A DNA stretch of 64,000 nucleotides from Micrococcus flavus (lineage in GTDB: Bacteria; Actinomycetota; Actinomycetes; Actinomycetales; Micrococcaceae). The stretch covers positions 2,448,793-2,512,792 of the forward strand of contig NZ_JACHMC010000001.1 in assembly GCF_014204815.1 (NCBI RefSeq), read 5' to 3'. The position numbers and the translations under genes are program-made. The notes under the pieces are model-generated. The model did no database searches, was not told the DNA's origin, and worked only from the letters and a program-made list of their open reading frames with translations. Each line of letters opens with the position of its first letter. Position 1 is the stretch's first letter. Shown piece after piece: positions 36,926 through 64,000 of the stretch.

Positions 36926-36963
36926 GGGGCGCATCCTGAGAGTCGTCTGAGCCGTCCACAGGC

Positions 36964-46393: not shown

Positions 46394-47050
46394 TCAGCGG
46401 GTGAACACCCGCTCGATCGGGGTGTCCCCGTCCACGAACTCCACCTGGCGGCTGATCGCCGCGCCGGAGCCGACGGCGGCCGCGATCATCCGTGCCACGT
46501 TGCCCCGGGAGACGCCGGGCAGCCCCTCGCCGCGGTCCCGCGGATCCACCTCCACGCGGCCGGTCGGCTCGTCCTGCGTGAGGGCGCCCGGGCCCAGGAT
46601 CGTCCAGTCCAGATGGGACCCGCGCAGGTGCTCGTCCGCGGCGGCCTTGGCCTCGGCGTAGGGGAAGAAGTCGCTGTCCTCAGGCACGCCGTGGTGCGGA
46701 CCGGCGCCCAGGTAGGACACCATCACGTAGCGGCGCACCCCGGCAGACCACGCCGCGTCCATCGAGGCGATCGCGGCATCCCGGTCCACGGCGTACGTCC
46801 GCTCCGGATCCCCGCCCCCGGCCCCGGCGGACCACACGACGACGTCGCGTCCCGCCAGGGCCTGCTCGAGGTCCGCGGGGGCGGCGTGCTCCACGTCCAG
46901 GACGAGGGGCTCGGCGCCCGCGGCGCGCACGTCCGCGGCGTGGTCGGGGTTCCGGATCACGGAGGTGACGGTGTGGCCCGCCTCCGCCAGCAGGGGGGCG
47001 GCCAGCAGGGCCACCTTGCCGTGTCCGCCGATGATCAGCACGTCCGCCAT
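46394..47050 (-). CDS. NAD(P)H-binding atypical SDR (NmrA/YwnB-like)
   Basis: 218 residues. The Rossmann motif is VLIIGGHGKVALLAAPLL (4-21). VVWSAGAGGGDPERTYAVDR and RRYVMVSYLGAG are typical of the YwnB/HSCARG-like atypical SDR group that senses or uses NAD(P)H; the usual catalytic Tyr-x-x-x-Lys is replaced by YAEAKAAAD. ATG 47050 has a GGAGACACC site upstream. It diverges from the cas operon and is probably unrelated to it. Confidence 0.8.
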   Translation of the reverse strand: MADVLIIGGHGKVALLAAPLLAEAGHTVTSVIRNPDHAADVRAAGAEPLVLDVEHAAPADLEQALAGRDVVVWSAGAGGGDPERTYAVDRDAAIASMDAAWSAGVRRYVMVSYLGAGPHHGVPEDSDFFPYAEAKAAADEHLRGSHLDWTILGPGALTQDEPTGRVEVDPRDRGEGLPGVSRGNVARMIAAAVGSGAAISRQVEFVDGDTPIERVFTR

Positions 47051-47179
47051 GGGGTGTCTCCTTCGTCTCGGGTGGGGTGGTCTCGTCCGGCACAACGGAC
47101 CGGGTCAGCCGGATATTCCGGGGCGGGAAGGCGACGCCGGCGGCGCCGCCGATCTGAGGGCGCCGCCGGAGTTCTTCGG

Positions 47180-47268
47180 GCGCGATCCCGGATGCATGCG
47201 GGAGCACTGGGCCACAGGTGCCGGCCCGCGTACACGTCTGGGCTCATCACCGTTGTTCACGGTGCAGG
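47180..47268 (-). ncRNA. Degenerate mini-CRISPR encoding a crRNA-like RNA (CreR/CreA class)
   Basis: Read on the minus strand. Pseudo-repeat 1 (47268-47241) has stem CACCGT/ACGGTG in place of the array's CCCCGC/GCGGGG, with the 3' half at the same repeat positions (16-21) and the same last seven bases ATGAGCC, the future 5' handle. Exactly 33 bases follow (47240-47208), the array's spacer length. Pseudo-repeat 2 (47207-47180) begins GTGCTCCC like the real repeat and folds TCCCG/CGGGA, again ending so that the last stem G is at position 21. Overall identity to the repeat is only about 14/28 and 16/28, but stems, handle and spacing are kept. Cas6e processing would give a guide loaded into Cascade. 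Confidence 0.75.
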
Positions 47269-47271
47269 ACC

Positions 47272-47277
47272 AGCCTA
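47272..47277 (-). promoter_or_regulatory. -10 box of the crRNA-like RNA
   Basis: TAGGCT on the minus strand is the same -10 form used by neighbouring leaderless genes. Seven bases downstream is 47264, the first base of the pseudo-repeat 1 stem, so the RNA could begin directly at its processing hairpin. No clear -35 is visible. Confidence 0.55.
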
Positions 47278-47306
47278 GTGAGGGCCCGTCGAAGCGCCGT
47301 CTCGAA

Positions 47307-47341
47307 AACAGACGAGCACGGTGGTTTAGGGGGAATATCTT
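47307..47341 (+). promoter_or_regulatory. Predicted Cascade target in the cas3 promoter region
   Basis: AAC (47307-47309) is followed by AGACGAGCACG (47310-47320). The crRNA-like guide begins AGACGTGTACG. Bases 1-5, 7 and 9-11 match; position 6 is one that Cascade leaves unpaired, and position 8 can form a U-G pair. AAC fits the PAM suggested by the array, where the base after the repeat is nearly always C or G. An AT-rich -10-like stretch (GAATATCTT, 47333-47341) overlaps, so binding should block cas transcription. Confidence 0.6.
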
Positions 47342-47370
47342 CCTGGCCAAATGTGATTTGCCCCACTAAG

Positions 47371-47399
47371 GTGTTGCCCACGAAGAAGCTGTGCAACAC
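47371..47399 (+). promoter_or_regulatory. Inverted repeat in the cas3 5' region
   Basis: GTGTTGC (47371-47377) and GCAACAC (47393-47399) form a perfect 7-bp inverted repeat with 15 bases between, 39 bp before cas3. TAAGGT (47367-47372) at its edge is another possible -10. It could be an operator or a 5'-UTR hairpin. Confidence 0.4.
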
Positions 47400-47437
47400 A
47401 CAAGCAGGGCCGGCGGACGGGTTAAGGGGGAGGTCGC

Positions 47438-50269
47438 ATGACAACGGTCGGATGGTCACCGCAGGCACTGAGTCTGTGGGCCAAGACCGGACCGGAGTCG
47501 GAGGACTGGCTGGACCTTCCCCGTCACCTCACCGACAGCGCGGCCATCGGGGGATGGCTGTGGCGGTGCTGGCTGGCGCCGGGCGTCGCCGGCTGGCTGG
47601 AGGACGAGCTCGACCTGCGCGGCGAGGGGGATGTCCTTGGCGCATGGCTCGCGGGCGTCCATGACGTGGGCAAGGCGTCCGAGGTGTTCGAGGGGCAGCT
47701 CATGGGCGATCACACCAGGCTCCCGTTCGCGGAGCGCATCCGGGACGTCGGGCTGCCTCTCTCCGGGCCGGCAGGTCCCGCGGACAGTCACCCCCACTCT
47801 GCCGTCAGTCACGCCGCACTGAAGCGCTGGCTCGTGGTGGAGGGCTTGACCCGTTCCAGCCGCGCCGCCGCCTCGTTGGCCGAGATCGCCGGCGCCCACC
47901 ACGGACTGCCTGCGACGCCCGCGGAGGTGCGGCGTGCGGAGAGCGCTGCGCGACGTCAGCCGTCATGGGCCGCGGTCCAAGACGAGCTCATCGCGGGCAT
48001 CACGGACCGGCTCGGAGCCCACGACGTCCTGGGGCGCGTGCTCGCCGTCGAGCCGCGCGCCCACCACCAGATGCTGCTGACCGGTCTGGTGGTGATGGCG
48101 GACTGGATCGCCTCGAACCCGGACCTCTTCCCCCTCCTGCCCGCCGCCCTGCTGGACGAGGAGGCGCGGCTTGCCGACGCCGTGGCGACCCTCGACCTGG
48201 CCGGCCCGGCCCGGCCCCGTGTGCTGGAGGCCGATCCGGCGGCGGCCTATCGTCACGCCTTCGCCTGGCCGGAGGGGCGGCGGCCGTGGCCGGTGCAGGC
48301 GGAGATCCTGCGGGCCGCGGAGCAGATGGAGGGCCCCGGCCTGCTGTGCGTCGAGGCGCCGATGGGTGTCGGCAAGACGGAGGCGGCCCTGGCTGCCGCG
48401 CAGGTGATGATGCGCCGGACGGGGCGCAGCGGGGTGATCGTCGCAGCGCCCACCATGGCCACTTCGGACGCACTGTTCCGTCGAGTGCAGGTCTGGGCGG
48501 AACGCAACCTGGAGGGGGACGGCCCCGTTTCCCTGGTGCTGGCGCACTCGAAGGCTGCGCTGAATGCGGAGGCTGCCGCGATGCCCCGCGTCGGGATGGG
48601 CTCCCAGGACATCGGTCGAGACGATCCGCACGATCGCCACCAGTCTGTGGTCGCGCACCAATGGCTCAGCGGTCGCAAGAGGGGCATGCTCGCCTCCATC
48701 GCGGTGGGGACGGTGGATCAGGTGCTGTTCATGGCCCTGCAGTCCCGGCACGTGATGCTGCGGCACCTGGGCCTCGCGTCCAAGGTGGTCGTCATCGACG
48801 AGGCGCATGCCTACGACTCCTACATGAACCAGTACCTGTCGCGAGCTCTGCACTGGCTGGGGGCGTACGGCGTTCCGGTGGTCCTCCTCTCGGCGACGCT
48901 TCCGCATGCCATCCAGCAGGAACTCGTCGCGGCCTACATGGACGGCCGACACGGCGGTCGGAGGATCACGGCGCCGGAGACGGGCGCCGCCTATCCGGTG
49001 ATCACCACCGCGGACCGGGCCGGGATCAGGGCGGAGCAGACGCCGGAGTCCGGGCGGCGCTCGGAGGTGGAGTTCACGGCCGTCGCGGATGACGAGGACT
49101 CGTTGCGGGGGCTGCTGACTCCGTGCGTGTCGGACGGAGGATGTTTGCTCGTGGTCTGCTCCACCGTCGCCCGAGCGCAGCATGCCTACGCGCTCGCCCG
49201 GGATCTCGTGGGGGATGACGCGGTGCTGCTGCACTCCCGCTTCCTCGCCCGGGACCGCGTCGAGAAGGAGGCCGTCCTGGTGACCGAGCTGGGCCCCGAC
49301 GCGCGGCGAGGCCAGGGCCGGCCCGAGCGGCGGATCGTGGTGGCCACCCAGGTCGTGGAACAGTCTCTCGATCTGGACTTCGACGGCATGGTCACGGATG
49401 TCGCCCCCATGGACCTCATCCTTCAGCGCACGGGGCGTGTGCACCGCCACGCACGCCCGGTGGAGGACCGGCCTGGCTGGGGCCGCGCGCCGCGCGTGTG
49501 GGTGCGTGGCGCCGTGGATCCGGGGGATGATGCCACCCCGCCGGCCTTCGAGAGCGGGGTGGAGGCCGTCTATGCGCCGGCGCTGCTGACGGCCACCTGG
49601 GGTCTGCTCTCCCTGGAGCGGGACGGGCGGACGGTGAGCCTCCCCCGGGAGATCCCGACGCTGGTCGCGGGGGCCTACGCGGAGCGGCCGGCACTGCCCG
49701 AGGCCTGGGGCGAATCTTTTGTGGTGCAGCGGAAGGAGTGGGAGGCGCGGCAGGAGACGGCGCGGAATCGGGCCAAGGGCTTCCTCCTGCCGACGGCGAA
49801 GGGCGTGAAGTACTTCCGCGACCTGTGGGCCGGGCCGACGGGGGACCCCGGGACCGAGCGGGGCGAGGCTGCCGGGCTGGCGCAGGTCCGCGACACGGAC
49901 CCCACGCTCGAGGTGCTCCTCGTCCGGGCGGCGGAGGGCGGCTACGTCCCCTGGGGCTCCCCCGGCGACGCGGAGGTGACCTTCACGGGGAAGGCGCTCT
50001 CCCCGTGGCGTGCCCGGCAAATCGCCGAGTCCTCGGTGCGACTGCCAGGGCGCTTCTCCCGCATGCCGCTCTTCGAACGGGCGCTGGACGAGCTGGAACA
50101 GGGCACGGACGTCGCCTGGCAGCAGTGCTCCCTGCTGCGGGGACAGCTGCAGCTCATCGCCGACGAGGAGGGGCGGACGACGGTGGCGGGCGTCGACCTC
50201 CGCTACGACCTCGACCTCGGCCTGCTGGACGGCCCCCAGACCACCCGGATGAACGAAGGAACGCGATGA
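47438..50269 (+). CDS. cas3: CRISPR-associated helicase-nuclease Cas3 (type I-E)
   Basis: 943 residues. The N-terminal HD nuclease has H30 and the pair HDVGK (75-79), with IAGAHHGLP further on. The SF2 helicase has Walker A APMGVGKTEAAL (about 305-316), VIDEAHAYDS (DEAH, about 452), LLSATLP and QRTGRVHRH (motif VI). Cas3 is recruited by Cascade bound to target DNA and degrades it 3'-5'. Length and order fit I-E. Strong GGGGAGGT precedes ATG 47438. The stop overlaps the casA start (ATGATG). Confidence 0.96.
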   Translation: MTTVGWSPQALSLWAKTGPESEDWLDLPRHLTDSAAIGGWLWRCWLAPGVAGWLEDELDLRGEGDVLGAWLAGVHDVGKASEVFEGQLMGDHTRLPFAERIRDVGLPLSGPAGPADSHPHSAVSHAALKRWLVVEGLTRSSRAAASLAEIAGAHHGLPATPAEVRRAESAARRQPSWAAVQDELIAGITDRLGAHDVLGRVLAVEPRAHHQMLLTGLVVMADWIASNPDLFPLLPAALLDEEARLADAVATLDLAGPARPRVLEADPAAAYRHAFAWPEGRRPWPVQAEILRAAEQMEGPGLLCVEAPMGVGKTEAALAAAQVMMRRTGRSGVIVAAPTMATSDALFRRVQVWAERNLEGDGPVSLVLAHSKAALNAEAAAMPRVGMGSQDIGRDDPHDRHQSVVAHQWLSGRKRGMLASIAVGTVDQVLFMALQSRHVMLRHLGLASKVVVIDEAHAYDSYMNQYLSRALHWLGAYGVPVVLLSATLPHAIQQELVAAYMDGRHGGRRITAPETGAAYPVITTADRAGIRAEQTPESGRRSEVEFTAVADDEDSLRGLLTPCVSDGGCLLVVCSTVARAQHAYALARDLVGDDAVLLHSRFLARDRVEKEAVLVTELGPDARRGQGRPERRIVVATQVVEQSLDLDFDGMVTDVAPMDLILQRTGRVHRHARPVEDRPGWGRAPRVWVRGAVDPGDDATPPAFESGVEAVYAPALLTATWGLLSLERDGRTVSLPREIPTLVAGAYAERPALPEAWGESFVVQRKEWEARQETARNRAKGFLLPTAKGVKYFRDLWAGPTGDPGTERGEAAGLAQVRDTDPTLEVLLVRAAEGGYVPWGSPGDAEVTFTGKALSPWRARQIAESSVRLPGRFSRMPLFERALDELEQGTDVAWQQCSLLRGQLQLIADEEGRTTVAGVDLRYDLDLGLLDGPQTTRMNEGTR

Positions 50270-51939
50270 TGACCACGACGCAGGAGACCTTCAACCTCGT
50301 GGACCGACCGTGGATCCGTGTCCGCGCCCTCGACGGCGGGGAGCGGCTGCTCTCGGGACGCGAGGTGTTCGAGCAGTCCAGGACGATCGAGCGGATCGCA
50401 GGCGAGTCCCCGCAGCAGGACGCCGCGGTGCTCCGGGTGCTGCTCGCCGCCTGGTGGAGCGCCGTCCGGGAGGAGCCGCAGCTCAGCGACGGTGATGCCC
50501 GCGCAGCGGGTGAGTGGTGGATCGACCAGTTCACGTCCACGGACGTGCCCGGAGGCCGGGTGGCCATGGACCGCTACTGGAACGCGGTGCGCGGGCGCTG
50601 GGACCTGCTGGATCCCGTGGCACCGTTCATGCAGGTCTCGGATCTCCACACAGCCAAGGGGGAGTGGAGCTCGGTGCGCAAGCTGCTGCCGGACGCTGAG
50701 TCCTCCTACTTCACCCTGCGCGAGGGCGACGCCGCGGAGTCCCTGGCCCTGGACGAGGCGGCGCGCTGGCTCGTGCACCTGCAGGCGTGGAACTACTCGG
50801 GCATCAAGTCCGGCGCGGTCGGCGATCCGCGCGTCAAGGGAGGGAGGGGATACCCCATCGGCACGGGGTGGAGCGGCAAGGCCGGCGTCGTCGTGCTGCA
50901 CGGACGGGACCTCGCTGAGACGCTTCTGCTGAACACACCGCCGACCAAGGTGTTCCTGAATGACGTCGAGACCGACCGCCCCGTCTGGGAGCGGGAGCCG
51001 GACATGGCCGCCTCCCGGGGCGTCGAGGCACCGGCGGGCCCCCGTGATCTGCTGACGTGGCAGATCCGGCGGGTCCGTCTGCGCATCGAGGACGGCCGCG
51101 TGACCGGCGCGGTCGTGTCCAACGGGGACAGGATCGAGCTGAAGAACCAGTTCGCCGACCCGATGACCGCCTATCGCCACAGCATCCCGCAGTCCAAGAA
51201 GGCCGGCACGGACGTCTGGATGCCACGGGAGCACAGCGAGAGCCGGACCCTCTGGCGCGGGGTCGAACCGCTGCTGCTGCGCGAGGGCATGGCGTCCTCC
51301 TCCTCCCGCGACCGCCCCCCGGCGACGACGGCAGACCTCTCCGGGCTCCACCAGGAGCTGCGGGTCGCGGACGTGGAGGACGTGCTGATCGGGGTCGAGA
51401 TGATCGGCACCGTGTACGGGACCCAGGACGCCGTCGTGACCTCCACGATCCGGGAGGAGCTGCCACTGCGGCTGGCGGCCCTGACGTCACAGGATCCCGA
51501 CGTCGCCGACACGATCGTGACCGCGGCGAAGCAGACCATGGACGCCGCCGTGGACCTCGGCCGGCTCGCCGGGAACCTGGCTGTGGCAGCGGGCGGCGAG
51601 TACTCGTTCGTCGCGGCGGCGACGGAGGCCGCCCTGGCAGGACTCACGGAGCCGTTCAAGGGCTGGCTCGCCCGCGTGGGACCGGACGCCGACCTCCAGG
51701 TGCTCCGAGACCAGTGGTTCGCCTCCGCTGACCGCCACCTGCGTGCGCACGGTGCACGTCTCGTCGCCGGAGCCGGCCCCGTCGCCGTCGTCGGCCGCGA
51801 GGACGCGGACGGCCGGCTTCATTCGGCGGCCACGGCCTGGGGAAGCTTCACCTACGCCATCGACAAGACCCTCGACGGCCCGGCCCGTCGTCGGCGCAAC
51901 GCACCGGCCGACACCCGTGACGAGACCGTGTCGACATGA
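50266..51939 (+). CDS. casA: Cascade large subunit CasA/Cse1 (Cas8e)
   Basis: 557 residues. Cse1 features: ETFNLVDRPWIRVRALDGGE at the start, ALDEAARWLVHLQAWNYSGI, PIGTGWSGKAGVVVLHG, then MPREHSESRTLWRGVEPLL in the C-terminal half. The subunit recognises the PAM and helps open target DNA. The first ATG at 50266 overlaps the cas3 stop and a second follows at 50269; AAGGA upstream serves either. The stop overlaps an ATG in the casB frame at 51936. Confidence 0.94.
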   Translation: MMTTTQETFNLVDRPWIRVRALDGGERLLSGREVFEQSRTIERIAGESPQQDAAVLRVLLAAWWSAVREEPQLSDGDARAAGEWWIDQFTSTDVPGGRVAMDRYWNAVRGRWDLLDPVAPFMQVSDLHTAKGEWSSVRKLLPDAESSYFTLREGDAAESLALDEAARWLVHLQAWNYSGIKSGAVGDPRVKGGRGYPIGTGWSGKAGVVVLHGRDLAETLLLNTPPTKVFLNDVETDRPVWEREPDMAASRGVEAPAGPRDLLTWQIRRVRLRIEDGRVTGAVVSNGDRIELKNQFADPMTAYRHSIPQSKKAGTDVWMPREHSESRTLWRGVEPLLLREGMASSSSRDRPPATTADLSGLHQELRVADVEDVLIGVEMIGTVYGTQDAVVTSTIREELPLRLAALTSQDPDVADTIVTAAKQTMDAAVDLGRLAGNLAVAAGGEYSFVAAATEAALAGLTEPFKGWLARVGPDADLQVLRDQWFASADRHLRAHGARLVAGAGPVAVVGREDADGRLHSAATAWGSFTYAIDKTLDGPARRRRNAPADTRDETVST

Positions 51940-51983
51940 CAGCCGTCCGCCCCCAGACCCCCGCAGCACCTCAGGAGGAGACC

Positions 51984-52652
51984 ATGACCACCACCGACCT
52001 GCCGGATGCCGTCCCTTCGGGGGCGGCCCCGTCCGAGGAGGAGCCGCGCGAGCCCACGCTGTACCGTGCGACGGCCTCCGCCGCCCACCGCCTCCAGGCG
52101 GCTGTGCTGGGCGCCGATGACGCTGCCGCCGCATCAGCCCGGGCGACCCTGAGTCGTCTGCGCTGCGCCGTCGCCCAGGAACCCGGTGAGGACCCACTCG
52201 CCTGGAACGCCGTGGCAGAGGATCTCCTGGGGGAGCTGCCCCCGCAGGACCTCGGCCGGGGAGACGCTCCGTCCCCCGCCGAATGGGCCGCATTCGTGGC
52301 CATCACGCTCTTCGCCGCACATCAGCAGTCCCAGCGGGCACCCATGCACGTCAAGGGCATGAGCGTCGGGGCGGCTGCGGCCCGTCTGCGGCGCGCCACG
52401 GAGAGCGGCTCGATCAAGCAGCGGCTGGACGCCGTGATGGTCTCGGCGACTCCGCGGGCTCTGCGCTACCACCTGCGGTCGTTGGTCTCCCTGTTCGCTG
52501 CGCACGGCATCCCCCTCGACTACGGGGCGCTCGCCGAGGACCTCCGGCGGCTGCGACAGCCGGCCCGTCGCAGCGGCGTCCTGCTGCGCTGGGGGCGGGA
52601 CTACGCCGCCGGACTCTCCCGCAGCCGGGCCGCTGAACCGAACGACGCCTGA
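51984..52652 (+). CDS. casB: Cascade small subunit CasB/Cse2 (Cas11e)
   Basis: 222 residues, mostly helical, somewhat longer than E. coli Cse2 (160). AALRR-type helices include LSRLRCAVAQEPGEDPLAWN, AFVAITLFAAHQQSQ and RLDAVMVSATPRALRYHLRS, the conserved Cse2 C-terminal core. Two copies would line the Cascade belly and stabilise the R-loop. I prefer the ATG at 51984, with AGGAGGAG 4 bases upstream; the ATG at 51936, coupled to the casA stop, would add 16 residues. Confidence 0.88.
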   Translation: MTTTDLPDAVPSGAAPSEEEPREPTLYRATASAAHRLQAAVLGADDAAAASARATLSRLRCAVAQEPGEDPLAWNAVAEDLLGELPPQDLGRGDAPSPAEWAAFVAITLFAAHQQSQRAPMHVKGMSVGAAAARLRRATESGSIKQRLDAVMVSATPRALRYHLRSLVSLFAAHGIPLDYGALAEDLRRLRQPARRSGVLLRWGRDYAAGLSRSRAAEPNDA

Positions 52653-52694
52653 CACCCCTTCCCGTTCCATCCACCCCCTCACCTGGAGGACACC

Positions 52695-53867
52695 ATGAGC
52701 CTGTTCATCGACATCCACGCCCTGCAGACCCTGCCCCCGAACAACATCAACCGCGACGACACCGGATCGCCGAAGACCGCCACGTTCGGCGGAGTCCCGC
52801 GCCAGCGTGTGTCGTCTCAGGCGTGGAAGCGCGCGATCCGCAAGGACTTCGAGCAGCAGCTGAATCCGGACGAGCTCGGCGTGCGCACCAAGCGTGTCGT
52901 CGAGCGCATCGCCCGGCGCGTCCTGGAGCTGCAGGGCACCCCTGAGACGGACGTCCGCGACCCGCAGCAGCGCGCCGCACTGGCCGAGGCGGCCGGGCGG
53001 GTCGAGGCGCTGCTCAAGGGCGCCGGCTTCAAGCCGGAGAAGCCCAAGGCCAAGGCCAAGAAGGACGTCACCGAGGAGGAGCAGCTCGAGGCTCTCTTCG
53101 CCGAGGTCTCCTACCTGATGTTCCTCAGCGACAAGCAGATCACGGCGGCGGCCCAGGCGATCATCGAGACCCCGGACGGACCCTGGAGCAAGAAGACGGC
53201 AGCCGCCCTCCTGGACGATGCGCACTCGGTGGACATCGCGATGTTCGGCCGCATGATCGCCGACGCCTCCGACTTCAGGGTGGACGCCTCCGTGCAGGTG
53301 GCGCACGCCATCAGCGTCAGCGCCTCGGAGCCGGAGTTCGACTACTTCACCGCCGTCGACGATGTCCGGGAGGACGTGGAGGAGTCCGGGGCAGGGATGA
53401 TCGGCACGGTCACCTTCACATCGTCCACCCTCTACCGCTACGCGAACGTCAATGTCGGGGCACTCGCCGCGAACCTCGGTTCCGAGGAGGCCGCGTTGCG
53501 GGCAGCGCAGGCCTTCGTCAGGTCCTTCATCCGCTCGATGCCCACGGGCAAGCAGAACACCTTCGCCAACACGACACTGCCGGACCTCGTGGTCGTCGCG
53601 CTGCGGGAGGACCGGCCGATCTCCTGGGTCAACGCCTTCGAGGACCCGGTGCCCACCGAGGTCGAGGGCGGCCGCCGCAAGGAGGCCGCGGCGCGCCTGG
53701 CCGCCGAGGCCGCCGCGCTCGAGAGCATGTACGCGGCTCCGGCTCGACGCACCTGGGTGATCGCGCTGCCCGCGCTCGCCGACGCCGTCGCCGCCCTCGG
53801 TGCCCCCGTGGACCAGCGGACCCTGCTGACGCAGCTGGAGGTCGAGCTGCAGGAGGCGACGGCGTGA
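52695..53867 (+). CDS. casC: Cascade backbone subunit CasC/Cse4 (Cas7e)
   Basis: 390 residues. FIDIHALQTLPPNNINRDDT, then TATFGGVPRQRVSSQAWKRA-type sequence are hallmarks of Cse4; VQVAHAISVSASEPEFDYFT and MIGTVTFTSSTLYRYANVNV are further conserved. Six copies would form the spine that holds the crRNA. Residues 105-135 are a Lys/Glu-rich insertion (KPKAKAKKDVTEEEQ). The stop overlaps the casD GTG (GTGA). Confidence 0.95.
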   Translation: MSLFIDIHALQTLPPNNINRDDTGSPKTATFGGVPRQRVSSQAWKRAIRKDFEQQLNPDELGVRTKRVVERIARRVLELQGTPETDVRDPQQRAALAEAAGRVEALLKGAGFKPEKPKAKAKKDVTEEEQLEALFAEVSYLMFLSDKQITAAAQAIIETPDGPWSKKTAAALLDDAHSVDIAMFGRMIADASDFRVDASVQVAHAISVSASEPEFDYFTAVDDVREDVEESGAGMIGTVTFTSSTLYRYANVNVGALAANLGSEEAALRAAQAFVRSFIRSMPTGKQNTFANTTLPDLVVVALREDRPISWVNAFEDPVPTEVEGGRRKEAAARLAAEAAALESMYAAPARRTWVIALPALADAVAALGAPVDQRTLLTQLEVELQEATA

Positions 53868-54571
53868 CTGGCACCCTGCTCCTGAGGCTGAAGGGCCCCT
53901 TGCAGTCCTGGGGCTCCTCGAGTCGCCATCAGCGTCGGGAGACGCACCCGGTCCCGACGAAGTCCGCGGTGGTGGGTCTTCTCGCCGCGGCCGAGGGTCG
54001 CCGTCGCACCGATCCCGTGGAGGACATCGCAGCCCTCGAGTTCGGCGTGCGTGTGGACCAGCCGGGGACCCTCCTGCGTGACTACCAGACCGCCGCCGAC
54101 TGGCAGCGGAATCCGACGGCGGCCGCGAAGCTGAGCGAGCGCTTCTACCTGCAGGACGCCTGTTTCGTCGCGGGAGTGTCGGGGCCGGAGGAGTTGCTCG
54201 AGGGAATGGAGCATGCGCTCCGCAATCCGGTGTTCCCCCTGTACCTGGGGCGCCGCTCGTGTCCCGCCGATCCCCGGCTAGTGATCGGCTGGTTCGACCT
54301 CGGCGTGGAGGCGGCGCTGCGGGAGGTGCCGTGGCAGGCTGCCGACTGGTATCGGCGCACCCGCGCGAGGCGGGTGCCCTTGCCGATCTACCGGGACGCC
54401 CAGCCCGGGGAGGTCGTGGAGGAGCGGGTGCAGGACCTGCCGCTGAGCTTCGACCCGGCCCGCCGGGAGTATGGCTGGCGCGCGGTGCACATGCCCGCGC
54501 CGCTCGTCGTGGAGAACAAGCAGGGACGGGACCATGCAGACCCGTTCTGGGAGGCGGTGATGAGCGCATGA
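53864..54571 (+). CDS. casD: Cascade subunit CasD (Cas5e)
   Basis: 235 residues. LLLRLKGPLQSWGSSSRHQR and RRETHPVPTKSAVVGLLAAA are the classic Cas5 N-terminal motif. RDYQTAADWQRNPTA follows, and FPLYLGRRSCPADPRLVIG lies in the second half. Cas5e binds the crRNA 5' handle. It starts with GTG inside the casC stop and ends in ATGA overlap with casE. The last residues (DHADPFWEAVMSA) are typical. Confidence 0.93.
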   Translation: MTGTLLLRLKGPLQSWGSSSRHQRRETHPVPTKSAVVGLLAAAEGRRRTDPVEDIAALEFGVRVDQPGTLLRDYQTAADWQRNPTAAAKLSERFYLQDACFVAGVSGPEELLEGMEHALRNPVFPLYLGRRSCPADPRLVIGWFDLGVEAALREVPWQAADWYRRTRARRVPLPIYRDAQPGEVVEERVQDLPLSFDPARREYGWRAVHMPAPLVVENKQGRDHADPFWEAVMSA

Positions 54572-55254
54572 CGGTGCTCGCCAGGATGTCCTTGAATGCG
54601 GCGACGCGCGGTGGTCGGAGACTGCTGGGCGATCGCCAGGCCATGCACGCCGCGGTCATGTCGGCCTTCTCGCCGGGAGCGCACGACGCGATGGCCGGCC
54701 GGGTGCTGTGGCGGGTGGACCATGAGGCCCACCGCCACACGCTGTATGCCGTCAGCCCGGTGGAGCCTGACCTGACGCATGTCGTGGAGCAGGCAGGGTG
54801 GGCTGGTGAGTCGTGGGACGCGGCGGACTACGACCCGTTTCTCAGCCGTCTCGTGACGGGGCAACGGTGGGCGTTCCGGCTCGCTGCGAACCCGGTGAAG
54901 GCCAAGGCCCAGCCGGACGGCCGACGCAGCAAGGTCCTGCCCCATGTGACGCCGGCCCAGCAGGTGGCCTGGCTGCAGGAACGTGCCGCAGGGTGGGGGT
55001 TCAGCGTGCCGGCGGCGGGCGAGTCGGACGGCCCCGGGGCCGTCACGGTGACCCACCGCGCCGATGAGAGATTCGGTCGGGGGCAGAATGGGGCGGGCAG
55101 GCGACGGAGCCGGGTCACGTTGCGGGTGGTCCAGTTCGACGGGGTGCTCGACGTGGCGGATGCGTCGTTGCTGCGGCAGGCGCTGACAGGTGGCATGGGC
55201 AGGGCCAAGGGCTACGGCTGCGGCCTGATGACCCTGCGGCCGATCGCGCGATGA
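54568..55254 (+). CDS. casE: crRNA endonuclease CasE (Cas6e)
   Basis: 228 residues. It contains the RAMP fold with active-site His in DRQAMHAAVMSAF (about 27) and the glycine-rich loop ALTGGMGRAKGYGCGLMTLR near the C-terminus. It cuts each repeat at the base of the CCCCGC/GCGGGG hairpin and stays bound to the crRNA 3' end. It would also process the pseudo-repeats upstream of cas3. ATGA overlaps join it to casD and cas1. Confidence 0.94.
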   Translation: MTVLARMSLNAATRGGRRLLGDRQAMHAAVMSAFSPGAHDAMAGRVLWRVDHEAHRHTLYAVSPVEPDLTHVVEQAGWAGESWDAADYDPFLSRLVTGQRWAFRLAANPVKAKAQPDGRRSKVLPHVTPAQQVAWLQERAAGWGFSVPAAGESDGPGAVTVTHRADERFGRGQNGAGRRRSRVTLRVVQFDGVLDVADASLLRQALTGGMGRAKGYGCGLMTLRPIAR

Positions 55255-56198
55255 CCGGGGGTGGCGGGAAGCCGCGCATGGAGGCGCGGGAGCTGACGCG
55301 GGTGGCCGATCGGCTGTCCTTCGTCTATCTGGAGCGCGCCACGGTGCACCGGGACGGCAACGCGATCACGGCGACCGATCAGGACGGAGTGCTGCACATC
55401 CCCTCCGCGGCGCTGGGCTGCCTGCTCCTGGGGCCGGGGACGCGTGTGACCCATGCGGCGATGTCCCTTCTGGGTGACTCTGGTGCCTCCGTGGTGTGGG
55501 TGGGGGAGAACGGTGTCCGGTACTACGCCCATGGGCGGAGCCTGGCCCGGTCGACTCGCCTGCTGATCTGTCAGGCGGAGCTGGTGTCCAACACGCGCTC
55601 TCGCCTGGCGGTGGCCCGGCGCATGTACGCGATGCGGTTCCCGGGGGAGGACGTCTCCGCGCTCACGGTGCAGCAGCTGCGTGGACGCGAGGGGGCGCGT
55701 GTCCGAGGCCTGTATAGGCGCATGGCGGCGCAGTACGACGTGGAGTGGACGCGTCGTGACTACGACCCGGAGAACTTCGAGGACGGGAACCTGGCGAATC
55801 GTGCACTGACAGTGGCCAACACGGCGCTCTACGGGATCGTCCACGCCGTGGTGGTGGCGCTGGGATGTGCCGCAGGCCTCGGGTTCGTCCATACGGGCAA
55901 TGACAGGTCGTTCGTCTACGACGTGGCAGACCTCTACAAGGCCGACATCGCCATCCCCGTGGCGTTCCGTGTCGCCGGGACGCCGGGAGCTGATGTGGAG
56001 ACGGATGTGCGGCGAGCCGTGCGAGACGCCGTCGTGAAGGAGCGCCTGCTGGAGAGGATCGCCCGTGACGTGGGCGAGCTTCTTCTGGGGCTCGAGGAGC
56101 TTCCGGAGGAGTGGGACCAGGAGGACGGCCTGTCCCTGTGGAGCGGGCGAGGCCAGCAGACCGTCCCCGGCGGCGTGAGCTACGGAGAGCGCGCATGA
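55251..56198 (+). CDS. cas1: CRISPR integrase Cas1 (type I-E)
   Basis: 315 residues. The metal-binding set is visible: Glu in LRGREGARVRGLYRR (about 145), His in GLGFVHTGNDRSF (about 213) and Asp in YDVADLYKADI (about 225). RLSFVYLERATVHRDGNAIT is the I-E-type N-terminus. With Cas2 it captures prespacers and inserts them at the leader end. Start and stop both overlap neighbouring genes. Confidence 0.95.
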   Translation: MTGGGGKPRMEARELTRVADRLSFVYLERATVHRDGNAITATDQDGVLHIPSAALGCLLLGPGTRVTHAAMSLLGDSGASVVWVGENGVRYYAHGRSLARSTRLLICQAELVSNTRSRLAVARRMYAMRFPGEDVSALTVQQLRGREGARVRGLYRRMAAQYDVEWTRRDYDPENFEDGNLANRALTVANTALYGIVHAVVVALGCAAGLGFVHTGNDRSFVYDVADLYKADIAIPVAFRVAGTPGADVETDVRRAVRDAVVKERLLERIARDVGELLLGLEELPEEWDQEDGLSLWSGRGQQTVPGGVSYGERA

Positions 56199-56581
56199 TG
56201 GTCCTGGTCCTCACGGCGGCGCCTGCCGGCCTGCGCGGAGAGCTGACTCGCTGGCTGATGGAGATCGACGCGGGCGTGTTCGTGGGGAACCCGTCGGCGC
56301 GAATCCGTGACGAACTCTGGGCGAAGACGAAGCAGGACGTCAGGGAGGGGCGTGCCCTGCTCGTCTACACGGCAGCGACAGAACAGAGAATGCGCGTCGA
56401 GACGCACCGGCATCATTGGCAGCCCGTCGACGTGGAAGGACTGACCCTGATGCGGCGCCCGCTTCCGGAAGGATCCCGGCAGGATGGCCCGCAACGACGT
56501 ACTGGATGGAGCGCTGCGCGGATGCGGCAACGCTCGTTGAGGCCGTCGTGGCGGCGCCAGCAAGACGGCCAAAGTGAATGA
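56195..56581 (+). CDS. cas2: Cas2 (type I-E) with extended C-terminus
   Basis: 128 residues. MVLVLTAAPAGLRGELTRWL, IDAGVFVGNPSARIRDELWA and EQRMRVETHRHHWQPVDVEG are the Cas2e ferredoxin-like core, ending near residue 90. The last 35-40 residues are basic and Gln/Arg-rich (RQDGPQRRTGWSAARMRQRS) without recognised homology and run to within 51 bp of the first repeat, so they may read through leader DNA. Two start codons, 56195 and 56198, overlap the cas1 stop. Confidence 0.9.
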   Translation: MMVLVLTAAPAGLRGELTRWLMEIDAGVFVGNPSARIRDELWAKTKQDVREGRALLVYTAATEQRMRVETHRHHWQPVDVEGLTLMRRPLPEGSRQDGPQRRTGWSAARMRQRSLRPSWRRQQDGQSE

Positions 56582-56632: not shown

Positions 56633-59600
56633 GTGCTCCCCGCGCGAGCGGGGATGAGCCGTTCGCCTTGTCGACGCCGGCCGGGTAGTCGAAGTGCTCC
56701 CCGCGCGAGCGGGGATGAGCCCATGTGCACGGTGTTGCCGGCGGACCCGTAGCAGTGCTCCCCGCGCGAGCGGGGATGAGCCCTCGCCAGGCTTGCGGCC
56801 GAGGGGGTCGTTGTGGTGCTCCCCGCGCGAGCGGGGATGAGCCCGTCACGGCCACGAGGCGGCCCCACCGGAACACGTGCTCCCCGCGCGAGCGGGGATG
56901 AGCCCTCCTTGACCGCGTCACCGGCCTTATCCATGCCGTGCTCCCCGCGCGAGCGGGGATGAGCCCTCGTGCTCTCCGATCCGGACGATCATGGTCCGGT
57001 GCTCCCCGCGCGAGCGGGGATGAGCCGGTGACGGCCTCCAAGGCCCTGTTCGCGGACGCGTGCTCCCCGCGCGAGCGGGGATGAGCCGCTCACACCCTGC
57101 CCGGGCCCGTTCGAGGTGACGTGCTCCCCGCGCGAGCGGGGATGAGCCCCGTCTCGTCCAGGTGTCGCCGCCGTCCATGGAGTGCTCCCCGCGCGAGCGG
57201 GGATGAGCCCGTGCAGATCACGAACTTCCGCACGGAGGACGCGTGCTCCCCGCGCGAGCGGGGATGAGCCCCGGAGTAGTCAACCCGCTTGAGGGTCCGC
57301 CAGGTGCTCCCCGCGCGAGCGGGGATGAGCCCCCCGGCGGCGTCGGGCACCTGTGGGTCAAGGCGTGCTCCCCGCGCGAGCGGGGATGAGCCGGTGTCCC
57401 ACGGCTCCATCCGCTCCGCCAAGACGTGCTCCCCGCGCGAGCGGGGATGAGCCGATGTCCTTGACGGTCAGGCCCCACCAGGTCTCGTGCTCCCCGCGCG
57501 AGCGGGGATGAGCCTCCCCGTGCCAACCGATGGGAATGGAGAAACCGGTGCTCCCCGCGCGAGCGGGGATGAGCCCAGGATCCAGGGCAAGACCGTGGAC
57601 CTCACCGCGTGCTCCCCGCGCGAGCGGGGATGAGCCGAAGCGAGCGCCGGTGGCGTCCCGGTAGCAGATGTGCTCCCCGCGCGAGCGGGGATGAGCCCCC
57701 GTCCTGCTGCAGGACCAGCAGCCGGTCCCCGTGCTCCCCGCGCGAGCGGGGATGAGCCGTTGGCGCCGTCGTGGAACTCCACCTGGCACCTGTGCTCCCC
57801 GCGCGAGCGGGGATGAGCCCCATCCGCCCCCGAAGCACGGCTCCCCGTCAGCGTGCTCCCCGCGCGAGCGGGAATGAGCCCTGGAATCTGGTGCTCAAGG
57901 GCATCATCGAGGGGTGCTCCCCGCGCGAGCGGGGATGAGCCCCAGCGCTACACCCACTTCGACCACCCCGCGTTGTGCTCCCCGCGCGAGCGGGGATGAG
58001 CCCCGATCGCTCGACGCGTCCCGCTGGGCGATGAAGTGCTCCCCGCGCGAGCGGGGATGAGCCGGAGGGCATGACCCCGCAGGTCGACGTGTGGGAGTGC
58101 TCCCCGCGCGAGCGGGGATGAGCCGTTCGAGCCGAGCACCCGGAGACCGTTGTCGTAGTGCTCCCCGCGCGAGCGGGGATGAGCCCTACGTGGAGCGGGC
58201 CCGGTACCTGCTGGACCGGTGCTCCCCGCGCGAGCGGGGATGAGCCGTCCCGGACCATGCCGAGGACTGGCAGGATGACGTGCTCCCCGCGCGAGCGGGG
58301 ATGAGCCCCTGCCGTGGACGTCCGTGACCGGGAAGCCGTCGTGCTCCCCGCGCGAGCGGGGATGAGCCCTGGCAGATCGCCCGGCTCTGAACCGGGAGGT
58401 TGTGCTCCCCGCGCGAGCGGGGATGAGCCCCACCAGCGGGGAAAGTGCTCGACCCACTCGCCGTGCTCCCCGCGCGAGCGGGGATGAGCCCGCCGTATCC
58501 GTGAGCTCAAACGCCGGGAGATCGTGCTCCCCGCGCGAGCGGGGATGAGCCGAGCGGGCATGGAAGAACGCACGTCAGCGGGACGTGCTCCCCGCGCGAG
58601 CGGGGATGAGCCGGCGTACCTCGGCGCGGACGGCGCCTGGCACGTGTGCTCCCCGCGCGAGCGGGGATGAGCCCTCGTCGATGACACCGTGGGCGCCGGA
58701 GACGAGGTGCTCCCCGCGCGAGCGGGGATGAGCCGGAGCTCGTCGACCGGCTCACCACCCACACCCCGTGCTCCCCGCGCGAGCGGGGATGAGCCGAACG
58801 TGGGCGGGAGTGGGTTCAAGACGCTGGCGTGCTCCCCGCGCGAGCGGGGATGAGCCCTTGATGAACTGCCGTCCACCGGCTTCCCAGTCGTGCTCCCCGC
58901 GCGAGCGGGGATGAGCCCCCCTCCGTGCGAGTGCGCCGTAGGTCATCCTCGTGCTCCCCGCGCGAGCGGGGATGAGCCGCGCTGGGCCACGTGCCACTCG
59001 GCCGCGTCGATGTGCTCCCCGCGCGAGCGGGGATGAGCCCATCTCGGTCAACGTGCCGGGCGTGGACTTCTTGTGCTCCCCGCGCGAGCGGGGATGAGCC
59101 GGCGGTGACGTAGTGCGGCCTCCAGTCGCGGAGGTGCTCCCCGCGCGAGCGGGGATGAGCCTACCGGCCCGGGCAGACCAACGCCCGCGGCACCGTGCTC
59201 CCCGCGCGAGCGGGGATGAGCCGTGGGCCGTACGTGCCAGCGACGGTGAGATGTAGTGCTCCCCGCGCGAGCGGGGATGAGCCCAAGTGGTGGACCGTCC
59301 GCGCCGTGAGCGACCGGTGCTCCCCGCGCGAGCGGGGATGAGCCGGCCCGGCGCGAGCGGAGCCGAGACAACATCGCGTGCTCCCCGCGCGAGCGGGGAT
59401 GAGCCCATACACGCCTATGGGGGAGGGGGCAACCCCCGGTGCTCCCCGCGCGAGCGGGGATGAGCCGGAACTCCCACATGCGCCACCAGGAGAACCGCCG
59501 TGCTCCCCGCGCGAGCGGGGATGAGCCGCACGCCCTCACCGGCGCCTTTGATGGCCGCATGTGCTCCCCGCGCGAGCGGGGATGAGCCGCCCTGGTGGCT

Positions 59601-62600
59601 GAGGCCCGCGTGCGCTCCACCGTGCTCCCCGCGCGAGCGGGGATGAGCCGCCACGACACTTGCCCCGTGAACCATAGAGCGCGTGCTCCCCGCGCGAGCG
59701 GGGATGAGCCCAGGGCGCGGCGCAGCTCCGGCCCCGCGTCCACGTGCTCCCCGCGCGAGCGGGGATGAGCCGCATGAGCACCGAGAACGTGGAAGTCCCC
59801 AAGCGTGCTCCCCGCGCGAGCGGGGATGAGCCCAACGGCGGGGCGCCGGTGGCGATGCTCGGCTCGTGCTCCCCGCGCGAGCGGGGATGAGCCGGGCCTG
59901 TGACCATGAGCGTGGACGAGCTGACCGTGCTCCCCGCGCGAGCGGGGATGAGCCCGCGCGGCGGGCGAGCCCGCTGCTGTCGGTGAGGTGCTCCCCGCGC
60001 GAGCGGGGATGAGCCCCAGAACACGTTCATCGGCGGGCGCTGGCACCTGTGCTCCCCGCGCGAGCGGGGATGAGCCCACCCGCCAGTCGTGGCCGTTCGA
60101 CCGGACGGAGTGCTCCCCGCGCGAGCGGGGATGAGCCGGTGGAGGGACACGGTCACGTCCGCCTTGATATGTGCTCCCCGCGCGAGCGGGGATGAGCCCC
60201 ACGATGACCACCCAGACCCGCCCCCAGACGAGTGCTCCCCGCGCGAGCGGGGATGAACCGTGCTGCTGATCAACACCCCGCCCGGTGACCCGGTGCTCCC
60301 CGCGCGAGCGGGGATGAGCCGACCTCGCCCTGCTTGGTGATGCGGTAGTGCCCGGTGCTCCCTGCGCGAGCGGGGATGAGCCCGTCCCCCGCGGCCGCGG
60401 CCCGGCTGCCCGCGAGTGCTCCCCGCGCGAGCGGGGATGAGCCGTACCGGACGACCGGGACGGTGACCCTGCGGGGGTGCTCCCCGCGCGAGCGGGGATG
60501 AGCCCTCCGTGGCCGCACGACTGGGAGAGGTGGGGGCGTGCTCCCCGCGCGAGCGGGGATGAGCCGCCGTCACCTTCCAGGCCGGCCTGCCGCTAGGCGT
60601 GCTCCCCGCGCGAGCGGGGATGAGCCCAGATAGGAGCCCTGAGATGGCCAAGGCTGACGGTGCTCCCCGCGCGAGCGGGGATGAGCCCAGAAGTTCCACT
60701 ACGGCCTGGACATGGCCGACGTGCTCCCCGCGCGAGCGGGGATGAGCCTGCCGTGTCGTAGAGGGTGAAAAGCTCACTGTCGTGCTCCCCGCGCGAGCGG
60801 GGATGAGCCGCGGCCCCGCTCCGAGGTCGCCATGCAGACCGCGTGCTCCCCGCGCGAGCGGGGATGAGCCGGGCTTGCCGGATCCCTCCCACCTGCAGCC
60901 GATGTGCTCCCCGCGCGAGCGGGGATGAGCCCTCACGAACGTAGGGGACGACGAGGGTGCAGGCGTGCTCCCCGCGCGAGCGGGGATGAGCCTACCGCCG
61001 GGCGTCCCGGCTGGAGATGTTCCGAGTGCTCCCCGCGCGAGCGGGGATGAGCCGGTGCGGGTCTGCTCGCGGCCGGACCCGTCCGTGTGCTCCCCGCGCG
61101 AGCGGGGATGAGCCCACCACCGCCCGCGACCGCGCCAGAGCCCTAGTGTGCTCCCCGCGCGAGCGGGGATGAGCCCCACGGGGTCACCGTCCTCAACGCC
61201 CCCGGGACGTGCTCCCCGCGCGAGCGGGGATGAGCCACACTCAAGGGACCGGGTAGTACCGGCAGCTGGGTGCTCCCCGCGCGAGCGGGGATGAGCCTCG
61301 GGGCTCGCCGTTGGCGTGCTCCCCGCCGCGGTGCTCCCCGCGCGAGCGGGGATGAGCCGGTGCGGACCGTGTAGGCGTTGAAGCCGGGGTCGTGCTCCCC
61401 GCGCGAGCGGGGATGAGCCCGGCTCCACGTTCATGGACAAGAAGACCGGGACGTGCTCCCCGCGCGAGCGGGGATGAGCCTTGCAGCGCGACCACGCGGG
61501 CGGTCACCCGGGCGTGCTCCCCGCGCGAGCGGGGATGAGCCCCCCCCCCCCACACGAGGTTCGTGTAGGGGTCGGACAGGTGCTCCCCGCGCGAGCGGGG
61601 ATGAGCCGGCGGGCGAGAACCTGGCCCGCCTCATGGGGAGGTGCTCCCCGCGCGAGCGGGGATGAGCCGCCGCCCGTCACCGCGGACACGATGCCCGCCC
61701 AGTGCTCCCCGCGCGAGCGGGGATGAGCCGGCCGCAGCAGCAGCCGAGGCCGCCGACGCCGAGTGCTCCCCGCGCGAGCGGGGATGAGCCGTCGCTGGGG
61801 CCTGCCCGCCCGGCCTCGCGGACGTGCTCCCCGCGCGAGCGGGGATGAGCCGTGGGGGTGCGCGGCGAGGTCGAAGTCGTCGGGGTGCTCCCCGCGCGAG
61901 CGGGGATGAGCCGCCGGTGCCGCCACGGGACAACTCGAAGCCAGTGTGCTCCCCGCGCGAGCGGGGATGAGCCCAGCGGCGAACACCACGGGCCGTTCCC
62001 CACCTTGTGCTCCCCGCGCGAGCGGGGATGAGCCCCGGGGGAGACGTGCGTGAAATAGCCACGTTGCGTGCTCCCCGCGCGAGCGGGGATGAGCCACGCG
62101 CGCGCATAGTGTCAAGTGGTTCACGAACGTGCTCCCCGCGCGAGCGGGGATGAGCCGCTGGGCCGGCCACATTCCATCGAGCACGACCAGTGCTCCCCGC
62201 GCGAGCGGGGATGAGCCCGCGGTGCACACGCCGCGGATCAGACGGGCCGGGTGCTCCCCGCGCGAGCGGGGATGAGCCGAGTGCCGCCCATGCAGACCAA
62301 GCCCCTGTCCTGTGCTCCCCGAGCGAGCGGGGATGAGCCCGGGTCGATCACGGCCACCGTGACGGTGCGTGGGTGCTCCCCGCGCGAGCGGGGATGAGCC
62401 CGATCAGCCACCAACCGAAGACCTTGGCGGCAAGTGCTCCCCGCGCGAGCGGGGATGAGCCCTGCCGGCTCAGCGCGAGGCCATGAAGCGCGCAGTGCTC
62501 CCCGCGCGAGCGGGGATGAGCCCGAGGTGCGGCCGACGGCCGCCGAGATCGTCCGGTGCTCCCCGCGCGAGCGGGGATGAGCCCAACCCCGGCCCCGGTG

Positions 62601-63620
62601 ACGTCCTGATTCAGCGGTGCTCCCCGCGCGAGCGGAGATGAGCCCTGCAGCGCGTTGTCCAGCCGCAGGTGCAGGCGGTGCTCCCCGCGCGAGCGGGGAT
62701 GAGCCGTTCCGGCGCCGGTCTGCATGGCCTGGATCATCGTGCTCCCCGCGCGAGCGGGGATGAGCCGACGCGTGCGTGACGTTCGGCCCACGCAGGGCCG
62801 TGCTCCCCGCGCGAGCGGGGATGAGCCCGGCGGCATCGGGTAGCCCTGCGTCAGGCTGTCGTGCTCCCCACGCGAGCGGGGATGAGCCCGATCCGATGGT
62901 GACGCCCACGGCAGCCGCGCCGTGCTCCCCGCGCGAGCGGGGATGAGCCGCGGTACGTCGCCACCACGGACGTGAACCGTCGGTGCTCCCCGCGCGAGCG
63001 GGGATGAGCCCCGGTGGGCCCCCGGCATGGCCGCCGATGCGGTGTGCTCCCCGCGCGAGCGGGGATGAGCCGGCACCGGACCCGTCGCAGCCGCTGCAGT
63101 ACGCGTGCTCCCCGCGCGAGCGGGGATGAGCCGGCCGCGAAGTTATGCGACGCCATGCCCGGGGTGTGCTCCCCGCGCGAGCGGGGATGAGCCCGACGCG
63201 CCGACCCGCCGCGAGCAGGCGGCCGCGTGCTCCCCGCGCGAGCGGGGATGAGCCCAGGGTGGGGGACAGGGCCCCCTGCGCGGTCGCGTGCTCCCCGCGC
63301 GAGCGGGGATGAGCCGTCAGCGGGTGCATGAGGTGATCCTCTCGAGGTGTGCTCCCCGCGCGAGCGGGGATGAGCCCCGCGACATGCTCGCGCTCGTCTA
63401 CATGGCGAAGTGCTCCCCGCGCGAGCGGGGATGAGCCGGGGTACGTGGACACGGCGGTGGGCGGCCGCGCGTGCTCCCCGCGCGAGCGGGGATGAGCCTA
63501 CGTGGTGCCGGCCGCCGCCGGAGCGGCGCCCGTACTCCCCGCGCGAGCGGGGATGAGCCCACGGTGTGCGAGGACTCGTCGCCGTCCACGAGGTGCTCCC
63601 CGCGCGAGCGGGGATGAGCC
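56633..63620 (+). CRISPR. Type I-E CRISPR array, 115 repeats and 114 spacers
   Basis: The 28-bp repeat begins GTGCTCCC, folds CCCCGC-GCGA-GCGGGG and ends ATGAGCC. Period is 61 bp (33-bp spacers), checked along the array. Exceptions are spacer 61 (34 bp, before the repeat at 60355) and spacer 81 (38 bp, 61542-61579). Single-base repeat variants occur at 57853, 60232, 60355, 62312, 62617, 62861 and 63532. Six of the seven lie in the distal half, so the leader is at 56.6 kb beside cas2. I found no duplicate spacers by eye. The base after the repeat is C or G in about nine of ten units. Confidence 0.99.
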
Positions 63621-63656
63621 GCGCACCCAGCGCGGCCATAGAGGGACTGGTGCACG

Positions 63657-64000
63657 TGTAGGTGACAGCCATCTTCACGCCGCGTCTGCGGGCGTGTGGT
63701 CCATGATCAACTCGTACTCAACCGGCGTCAATCGGTCCAGGCGCACCTGCCGGCGGCGGCGGTGGTAGGTCCGCTCGATCCAGGTGATGATCCCGGCCCG
63801 CAGCTCGTCCCGGGTGTCCCAGTCGCATCGGTCCAGCACGTTCTTCTGCAGCAACGCGAAGAAGGACTCCATGGCCGCATTGTCCCCGGCTGAGCCGACC
63901 TGACCCATGGACCCGATCAGCCCGTGGGTGGTGAGGGCGTCCTGGAAGGCGGTCGAGCGGAACTGCGAGCCGCGGTCCGAGTGCACGATGCACCCGGCCA
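63657..64000 (-). mobile_element. IS3-family insertion sequence, right end (partial)
   Basis: An IS3-type transposase reading leftward runs off the window. Its end is close to the last CRISPR repeat; TGTAGGTGACAGCC (63657-63670) starts with TG and is a candidate terminal repeat, but the other end is not in view, so the boundary is tentative. It leaves 36 bp after the last repeat. Confidence 0.7.
63675..64000 (-). CDS. IS3-family transposase OrfB, C-terminal part
   Basis: At least 108 residues of the rve integrase core are present. CIVHSDRGSQFRSTAFQDAL holds the second catalytic Asp, and MGQVGSAGDNAAMESFFALL holds the catalytic Glu of the DDE triad. The C-terminal RRRRQVRLDRLTPVEYELIM is typical of the IS3 (IS150/IS51-like) group. 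The N-terminus, first Asp and OrfA lie beyond 64,000. The stop at 63675 is 55 bp from the last repeat. Confidence 0.93.
   Translation of the reverse strand, partial: AGCIVHSDRGSQFRSTAFQDALTTHGLIGSMGQVGSAGDNAAMESFFALLQKNVLDRCDWDTRDELRAGIITWIERTYHRRRRQVRLDRLTPVEYELIMDHTPADAA

Follow-up and report, generated by a model that had tools for sequence, protein, structure and literature searches.

The type I-E CRISPR-Cas locus of Micrococcus flavus raises the question of what is encoded by two degenerate copies of its repeat, 33 nt apart, that lie on the minus strand in front of cas3 (47264-47180 of the window, that is, of the whole 64,000-nt stretch of DNA analyzed here). A first-pass annotation had read these copies as the candidate gene of an autorepressor RNA of the CreR type. 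Such cas-regulating RNAs are stated to occur in type I-B, I-E and V-A systems in the available excerpt of a published account (PMC13131331). We consider it highly probable that the element is a degenerate two-repeat mini-CRISPR likely making a CreR guide, which would lead the cell's own Cascade to DNA before cas3 and bring about repression without cutting.

The main array of the locus (Table 1) is built from the repeat GTGCTCCCCGCGCGAGCGGGGATGAGCC, and 112 of its 114 intervals measure 33 nt. Beyond its 115 repeats, no copy with up to three mismatches was found on either strand elsewhere in the genome. The window ends at the end of the contig, shortly after the last repeat; the DNA at 63620-64000 appears transposase-like by eye, and a mobile element may interrupt the array.

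The element adjoins the cas operon: cas3 starts (47438) 174 nt away from the first base of its stem (47264). The two pseudo-repeats, their stems, the ATGAGCC segment and the 33-nt spacing were all present as the first-pass annotation had described them. The stem of pseudo-repeat 1 departs from that of the array repeat at two of its six pairs; both arms are changed there, and pairing is kept (C-G to A-U and C-G to U-A). The pseudo-repeats are unlike each other and unlike the array repeat, and the near-identity expected of a functional array is absent. Like the ordinary I-E array at the same locus, the element has the handle ATGAGCC, the 33-nt interval, the repeat start GTGCTCCC and an AA-type PAM. 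Unlike that array, it comprises one unit with degenerate repeats on the opposite strand, and its predicted self-target is limited to the seed. As judged from sequence, the anatomy of a crRNA-like gene is present: a repeat-derived 5' handle, a hairpin, a guide and a second repeat-like hairpin.

Table 1. Coordinates of the putative CreR gene, its predicted target and the surrounding type I-E locus, numbered from the first nucleotide of the window.
Feature	Position	Strand	Remark
Candidate -10 box of putative CreR gene, TAGGCT	47272-47277	-	inferred; 7 nt before first stem base
Pseudo-repeat 1 with ATGAGCC (5' handle of predicted guide RNA)	47264-47241	-	stem pairing, likeness to array repeat
Pseudo-repeat 1 stem, first arm CACCGT	47264-47259	-	
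Pseudo-repeat 1 loop	47258-47254	-	
Pseudo-repeat 1 stem, second arm ACGGTG	47253-47248	-	
ATGAGCC	47247-47241	-	identical to array repeat end
Base 29 (C), final base of predicted 8-nt handle	47240	-	same as last base of target AAC
Interval between pseudo-repeats, 33 nt	47240-47208	-	
Predicted 32-nt guide, AGACGTGTACGCGGGCCGGCACCTGTGGCCCA	47208-47239	-	
Pseudo-repeat 2 (predicted 3' handle)	47180-47207	-	start GTGCTCCC, stem TCCCG/CGGGA
GTGCTCCC	47207-47200	-	identical to array repeat start
Pseudo-repeat 2 stem, TCCCG / CGGGA	47203-47199 / 47190-47186	-	
AAC, predicted PAM of target	47307-47309	+	
Predicted target	47310-47341	+	guide matches at 1-5, 7 and 9-11; position 8 a possible U-G wobble
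cas3	47438-50269	+	first gene downstream of target, head of I-E operon
cas8e (cse1), cas11 (cse2), cas7, cas5, cas6e, cas1, cas2	49738-56581	+	open frames as listed, starts unrefined
Main I-E CRISPR array, 115 repeats, 114 intervals	56633-63620	+	

Scored as a mini-CRISPR, the element reaches 22.5, the highest value in the window outside the array (the runner-up scores 20.0). When 1,500 copies of the gap were generated with a first-order Markov model, the best score was 19.5 and none reached 20. A folding energy of -9.3 kcal/mol was computed for the first hairpin, equaled by none of 200 shuffles, and one of -10.7 kcal/mol for the second, equaled by 14 of 200. The fold of the complete 89 nt is ordinary in stability (46 of 200 shuffles equal it), and the minimum-energy structure retains the first hairpin only, the second being lost. 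With a z of -0.76, the whole-RNA fold was dropped as support for the element.

When the final base of the handle is counted as base 29, the predicted guide begins with AGACGTGTACG. Upstream of cas3, AAC followed by AGACGAGCACG is found at 47307-47320; it departs from the guide at positions 6 and 8, in accord with the first-pass annotation. Of the ten positions read by Cascade (1-5 and 7-11), nine match, the exception being position 8. Tolerance of a wobble there is assumed; two wobbles occur among the 14 of 44 related elements, presented below, that have one seed mismatch. The target lies 97-128 nt before the cas3 start, and only 2 of 3,000 shuffled guides match as well as the real guide. In the 2.55-Mb genome, AANAGACGNGNACG has a single exact site, upstream of cas3, and seven sites with one mismatch, versus ten for a reversed control pattern. 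One of these seven (C1:1196216-1196229) matches all 11 seed bases and carries CAA in place of the AA PAM.

The array itself gives some indication of the PAM. Three of its spacers match Micrococcus plasmids exactly, and all three show AAG together with G as base 29. Base 29 is C in 57 cases, G in 48, T in 7 and A in 2 across the array, and these counts make AAC a plausible PAM here. Targets of the related elements have AAC in 37 of 44 cases, AA having been required by selection, and base 29 is the same as the last base of the PAM in 22 of 44 only. When array spacers were compared with the gap, the best agreement was 8 of 10 positions, reached by 5 of 113 spacers. A megablast search of phages with the array spacers found no targets, and blastn returned five weak records, one of which pointed to Corynebacterium phage Stiles, described below. 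On plasmids, blastn of the spacers yielded 154 records, which were not used; most were Streptomyces sequences that aligned along the greater part of the query at about 65% identity. Sequence comparison indicates that a limited seed match (positions 1-5 and 7-11) with a putative PAM to DNA before a cas gene is present, and this target upstream of cas3 may lie in the cas promoter.

For the putative CreR gene itself, the proposed -10 hexamer TAGGCT is present (47277-47272). A scan of 47050-47500 revealed no consensus sigma-70-type promoter, so the transcript starts of both the element and cas3 are tentative. The 7-mer CTAGGCT has three copies in the window, counting both strands, which are located in the array leader (56603), at the element and at 36926. 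Terminators were sought in the gap, and none was found. An imperfect inverted repeat occupies 47360-47410, between target and cas3; its 21-nt arms are 71% complementary and 9 nt apart, and its inner arms are GTGTTGC/GCAACAC. It is possibly an operator or a leader hairpin of cas3.

These roughly 96 nt between target and cas3, which also include an ATG-TGA start-stop at 47351-47356, are where a different product might be encoded. The guide could be a CreA-type antitoxin that silences a toxic small RNA (CreTA) or a toxin gene (CrePA) in the gap and so makes the CRISPR system addictive. According to the available part of the CreA work (PMC8501985), CreA genes likewise have two degenerate repeats and a seed at positions 1-5 and 7-11. 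However, cas3 is the first gene downstream, and no plus-strand frame of at least 20 aa starts between target and cas3, in line with the first-pass annotation, which had seen no toxin gene. Moreover, 46900-47500 contains no match to an Rfam family up to E 1, and an alignment of the Corynebacterium group, inspected by eye, has no evident extra gene between target and cas3. We regard an antitoxin role as improbable.

Evidence for cas autorepression comes also from other genomes. DNA before cas3 was taken from 80 named genomes, which are the best 80 of 293 relatives. In a target-blind test, mini-CRISPRs were picked first, with targets ignored, in the 79 of 81 loci that offer at least 250 nt upstream, and six loci with true arrays were set aside. 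This test produced 30 loci with a candidate mini-CRISPR. For 14 of the 30, guide and DNA upstream of the same cas3 agree at 9 or 10 of the 10 positions with an AA PAM. Guides exchanged between loci do so in 2 of 826 cases, and shuffled guides in 3 of 1,800. A pairwise search was positive for 24 of 81 loci, versus 0-5 (mean 1.45) in 20 shuffled rounds. Among 45 further loci, from which 10 duplicates and one short locus had been removed, 19 were positive, versus 0-2 (mean 0.75) with shuffling.

Overall, 50 of 150 cas3 loci pass the handle, stem and target tests, a total that includes a class-wide set of 27 loci without a shuffled control of its own. Excluded from the 150 were one duplicate, loci shorter than 200 nt, the fragment L033, the own-genome copies L130 and L151, and L175 and L176, which derive from the same genomes as L142 and L143. 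Curation retained 44 elements. Removed by hand were L038, L075 and L108 (second repeat unconvincing), L159 (a true array unit), and L157 and L010 (odd guide lengths of 15 and 36). The 44 include several close relatives and so represent fewer independent cases than their count. About two-thirds of the 150 loci are negative, and the I-E type is confirmed for only part of them. Members that score 9 or 10 are found in Corynebacterium, Rothia nasimurium, Brachybacterium nesterenkovii, Klugiella, Bifidobacterium asteroides, B. mellis, Nocardiopsis alba and Amycolatopsis antarctica, among others.

Some loci have additional characteristics. At L065 and L146, one CreR-like guide has two AA-PAM targets upstream of cas3, at -370 and -438 in the former and at -578 and -605 in the latter. 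The targets of L082, L146 and L170 precede the cas3 match by 641, 578 and 478 nt, respectively. What is regulated at these three loci may be a different gene or RNA, and CreTA or CrePA is possible.

Target position in the family bears on a further alternative, in which the M. flavus guide acts not on cas3 but on, for example, the divergent oxidoreductase-like gene (46394-47095), its own transcription or a site elsewhere in the genome. Self-repression could occur, since the target also precedes the predicted -10 box of the element by about 30 nt, the two being on opposite strands, and the genome does contain the CAA-flanked site with all 11 seed bases. Nonetheless, the sole exact site with an AA PAM is the one upstream of cas3, and 31 of the 44 relatives have their target on the sense strand of cas3, 87 to 641 nt from the cas3 match. 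Regulation of something else in place of cas3 is extremely unlikely in our judgment.

Positions 1-5 and 7-11 were used for selection, and therefore matches there carry no further proof. The free positions are more informative about pairing: position 6 matches in 12 of the 44 elements and position 12 in 8. A match at position 6 in so few elements is expected if Cascade ignores this position. Positions 13-17, which were unselected, match in 127 of 220 cases (58%), versus per-position rates of 0.22-0.39 with swapped targets. As far as sequence can indicate, the pattern is that of a Cascade-read duplex in which every sixth base is ignored. The enrichment at positions 13-17 is seen in both guide-length classes and extends beyond the known seed.

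Guide and target can also be followed as they vary. The guides of Corynebacterium loci L048, L049 and L061 (ACGTCAGTGCT, ATGTTAGTGCT and ATGTCAGTGCT) agree letter for letter with their targets; guide and target, as predicted from these alignments, change together at positions 2 and 5. The fourth stem pair, compared in 20 elements, is C-G in 9, G-C in 5, A-T in 4 and T-G in 2. This variety was set aside as proof of covariation, because pairing was itself a selection criterion. In L068, no stem directly adjoins the handle.

Within Micrococcus, a full-length relative of the window's cas3 is present in 2 of 11 genomes. The other is Micrococcus sp. EYE_212, whose cas3 has 60% identity and whose genome holds at least 80 copies of the 22-nt 3' part of the repeat (up to three mismatches). 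No such element was found in the 1.5 kb upstream of its cas3. One 9-of-10 handle-and-seed match, at L034:6915, just beyond cas3, looks like a chance match. DNA of the gap, when sought in the 11 Micrococcus genomes, was present only in M. flavus itself. The comparison across Micrococcus strains that the first-pass annotation had proposed thus covers a single other genome, EYE_212, which has a cas3 relative and shows no such element upstream of it.

Absence from EYE_212, together with the worn repeats, would be consistent with a decayed remnant of an old array end whose match to the cas3 region is due to chance or to an old self-targeting spacer. Yet wear has left exactly the handle, the hairpins and the spacing, on the strand opposite to the array and about 9 kb from it. 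The scarcity of shuffled guides that fit as well, and the recurrence of the same layout with co-fitting targets in many loci, also argue against decay. This explanation appears very unlikely to us, and cas autorepression by a CreR guide, the reading preferred in the first-pass annotation, remains the best-supported one. It rests on the seed-only match with a PAM, the neglect of position 6, the location in front of cas3, and the agreement of guides with their own upstream DNA at many related loci, well in excess of controls.

The related elements differ in guide length. Distances from the handle to the second repeat were measured over 14-40 nt with no length favored. Among 47 elements with a confident second repeat, a count that includes hand-removed elements, guides measure 19-22 nt in 22 elements, 31-34 nt in 23, 15 nt in one and 36 nt in one; no guide of 23-30 nt was observed among them. 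In shuffled DNA, guide lengths are scattered over the entire range. The second repeat is confident in 44 of 44 elements versus 571 of 1,760 shuffled sequences, and strong in 34 of 44 versus 33 of 1,760. The element in the window belongs to the long class, with its 32-nt guide. Array positions were listed for two of the eight short-guide genomes searched, and both have the usual 61-bp array period, which implies that the short guides are about 12 nt shorter than the crRNAs of those genomes. Cascade engages its guide in 6-nt Cas7 steps, and a difference of 12 nt would therefore equal two subunits. To our knowledge, Cascades with an altered subunit number have so far come from engineered guides; the two lengths, if true, would be natural examples.

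We see about even chances for a broader proposal: that cas-autorepressor RNAs form a large and rapidly evolving class in actinobacterial I-E systems, with positions 1-5 and 7-11 fully kept, 13-17 partly kept and 6, 12 and 18 free, and with two guide sizes of about 32 and about 20 nt, the short ones building a smaller Cascade that represses only. A precedent is provided by the Haloarcula hispanica I-B system, in which, according to the portion of the report available, repression persisted and interference was lost when a spacer was shortened from 36 to 24 bp (PMC10989794). This step of 12 is the same as that from 32 to 20 nt in the relatives. Unlike that engineered case, the element in the window has a full 32-nt guide with an 11-nt seed match. 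Our literature search found no report of two CreR guide lengths, although the original CreR description may list such; as far as searched, the clustering at about 20 and about 32 nt is new at the family level.

How the element compares with characterized RNAs can be stated for the parts of the literature available. It resembles CreR in being a type I-E mini-CRISPR beside cas genes with a partial match before cas and no toxin gene seen. It differs in its actinobacterial host and in being a prediction from sequence; many relatives have guides of about 20 nt, which the window's element does not. It resembles CreA of CreTA in its two divergent pseudo-repeats and in a seed at 1-5 and 7-11 that ignores positions 6 and 12. 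The accessible text on CreA, which is described there mostly for I-B haloarchaea, establishes this seed and the free positions 6 and 12 by mutation and reports pairing at 13-17 to be dispensable (PMC8501985). Unlike the case of CreA, the gene downstream of the target is cas3 and not a toxin. By these comparisons, the element is a predicted new CreR and not a new kind of RNA. No report of CreR in Micrococcus or other Actinobacteria was found in the literature searched; the original CreR description may include such.

Repeats of the I-E type also occur in Corynebacterium phage Stiles (MK977710.1), where three hairpin repeats about 62 nt apart are located between genes 23 and 24 (L118:1500-1640). 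They are a candidate phage-borne mini-array or decoy. Compared with the cas3 regions of the 80 loci, their two guides reached at best 8 of 10 (L105) and 7 of 10 positions, which does not make a case for targeting.

The proposed autorepression would proceed as follows. A minus-strand transcript would begin near 47264, and Cas6e would cut it after each hairpin, near 47248/47247 and 47187/47186 as judged from repeat anatomy, leaving a 32-nt guide between an 8-nt handle and a 3' hairpin. For loading into Cascade, this RNA would compete with crRNAs from the 115-repeat array. The complex would then bind the AAC-flanked target by pairing at positions 1-5 and 7-11, of which position 8 would form a wobble. 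By analogy with CreA and CreR, this pairing would be too short for Cas3 cutting and would block transcription into cas3. Competition of CreR with crRNAs for Cas proteins, relieved by anti-CRISPRs, is described in the available part of a review (PMC12737573). Following the published CreR model, repression would ease and cas output would rise whenever Cascade is scarce, occupied by array crRNAs or inhibited by a phage.

The 44 curated I-E elements with predicted targets offer a test set for guide-target coevolution, for the neglect of positions 6 and 12, and for the two guide lengths. If our reading is true, M. flavus tunes CRISPR immunity with its own CRISPR machinery: free Cascade would set the level of cas expression, which would respond directly to crRNA load or to a phage anti-CRISPR.
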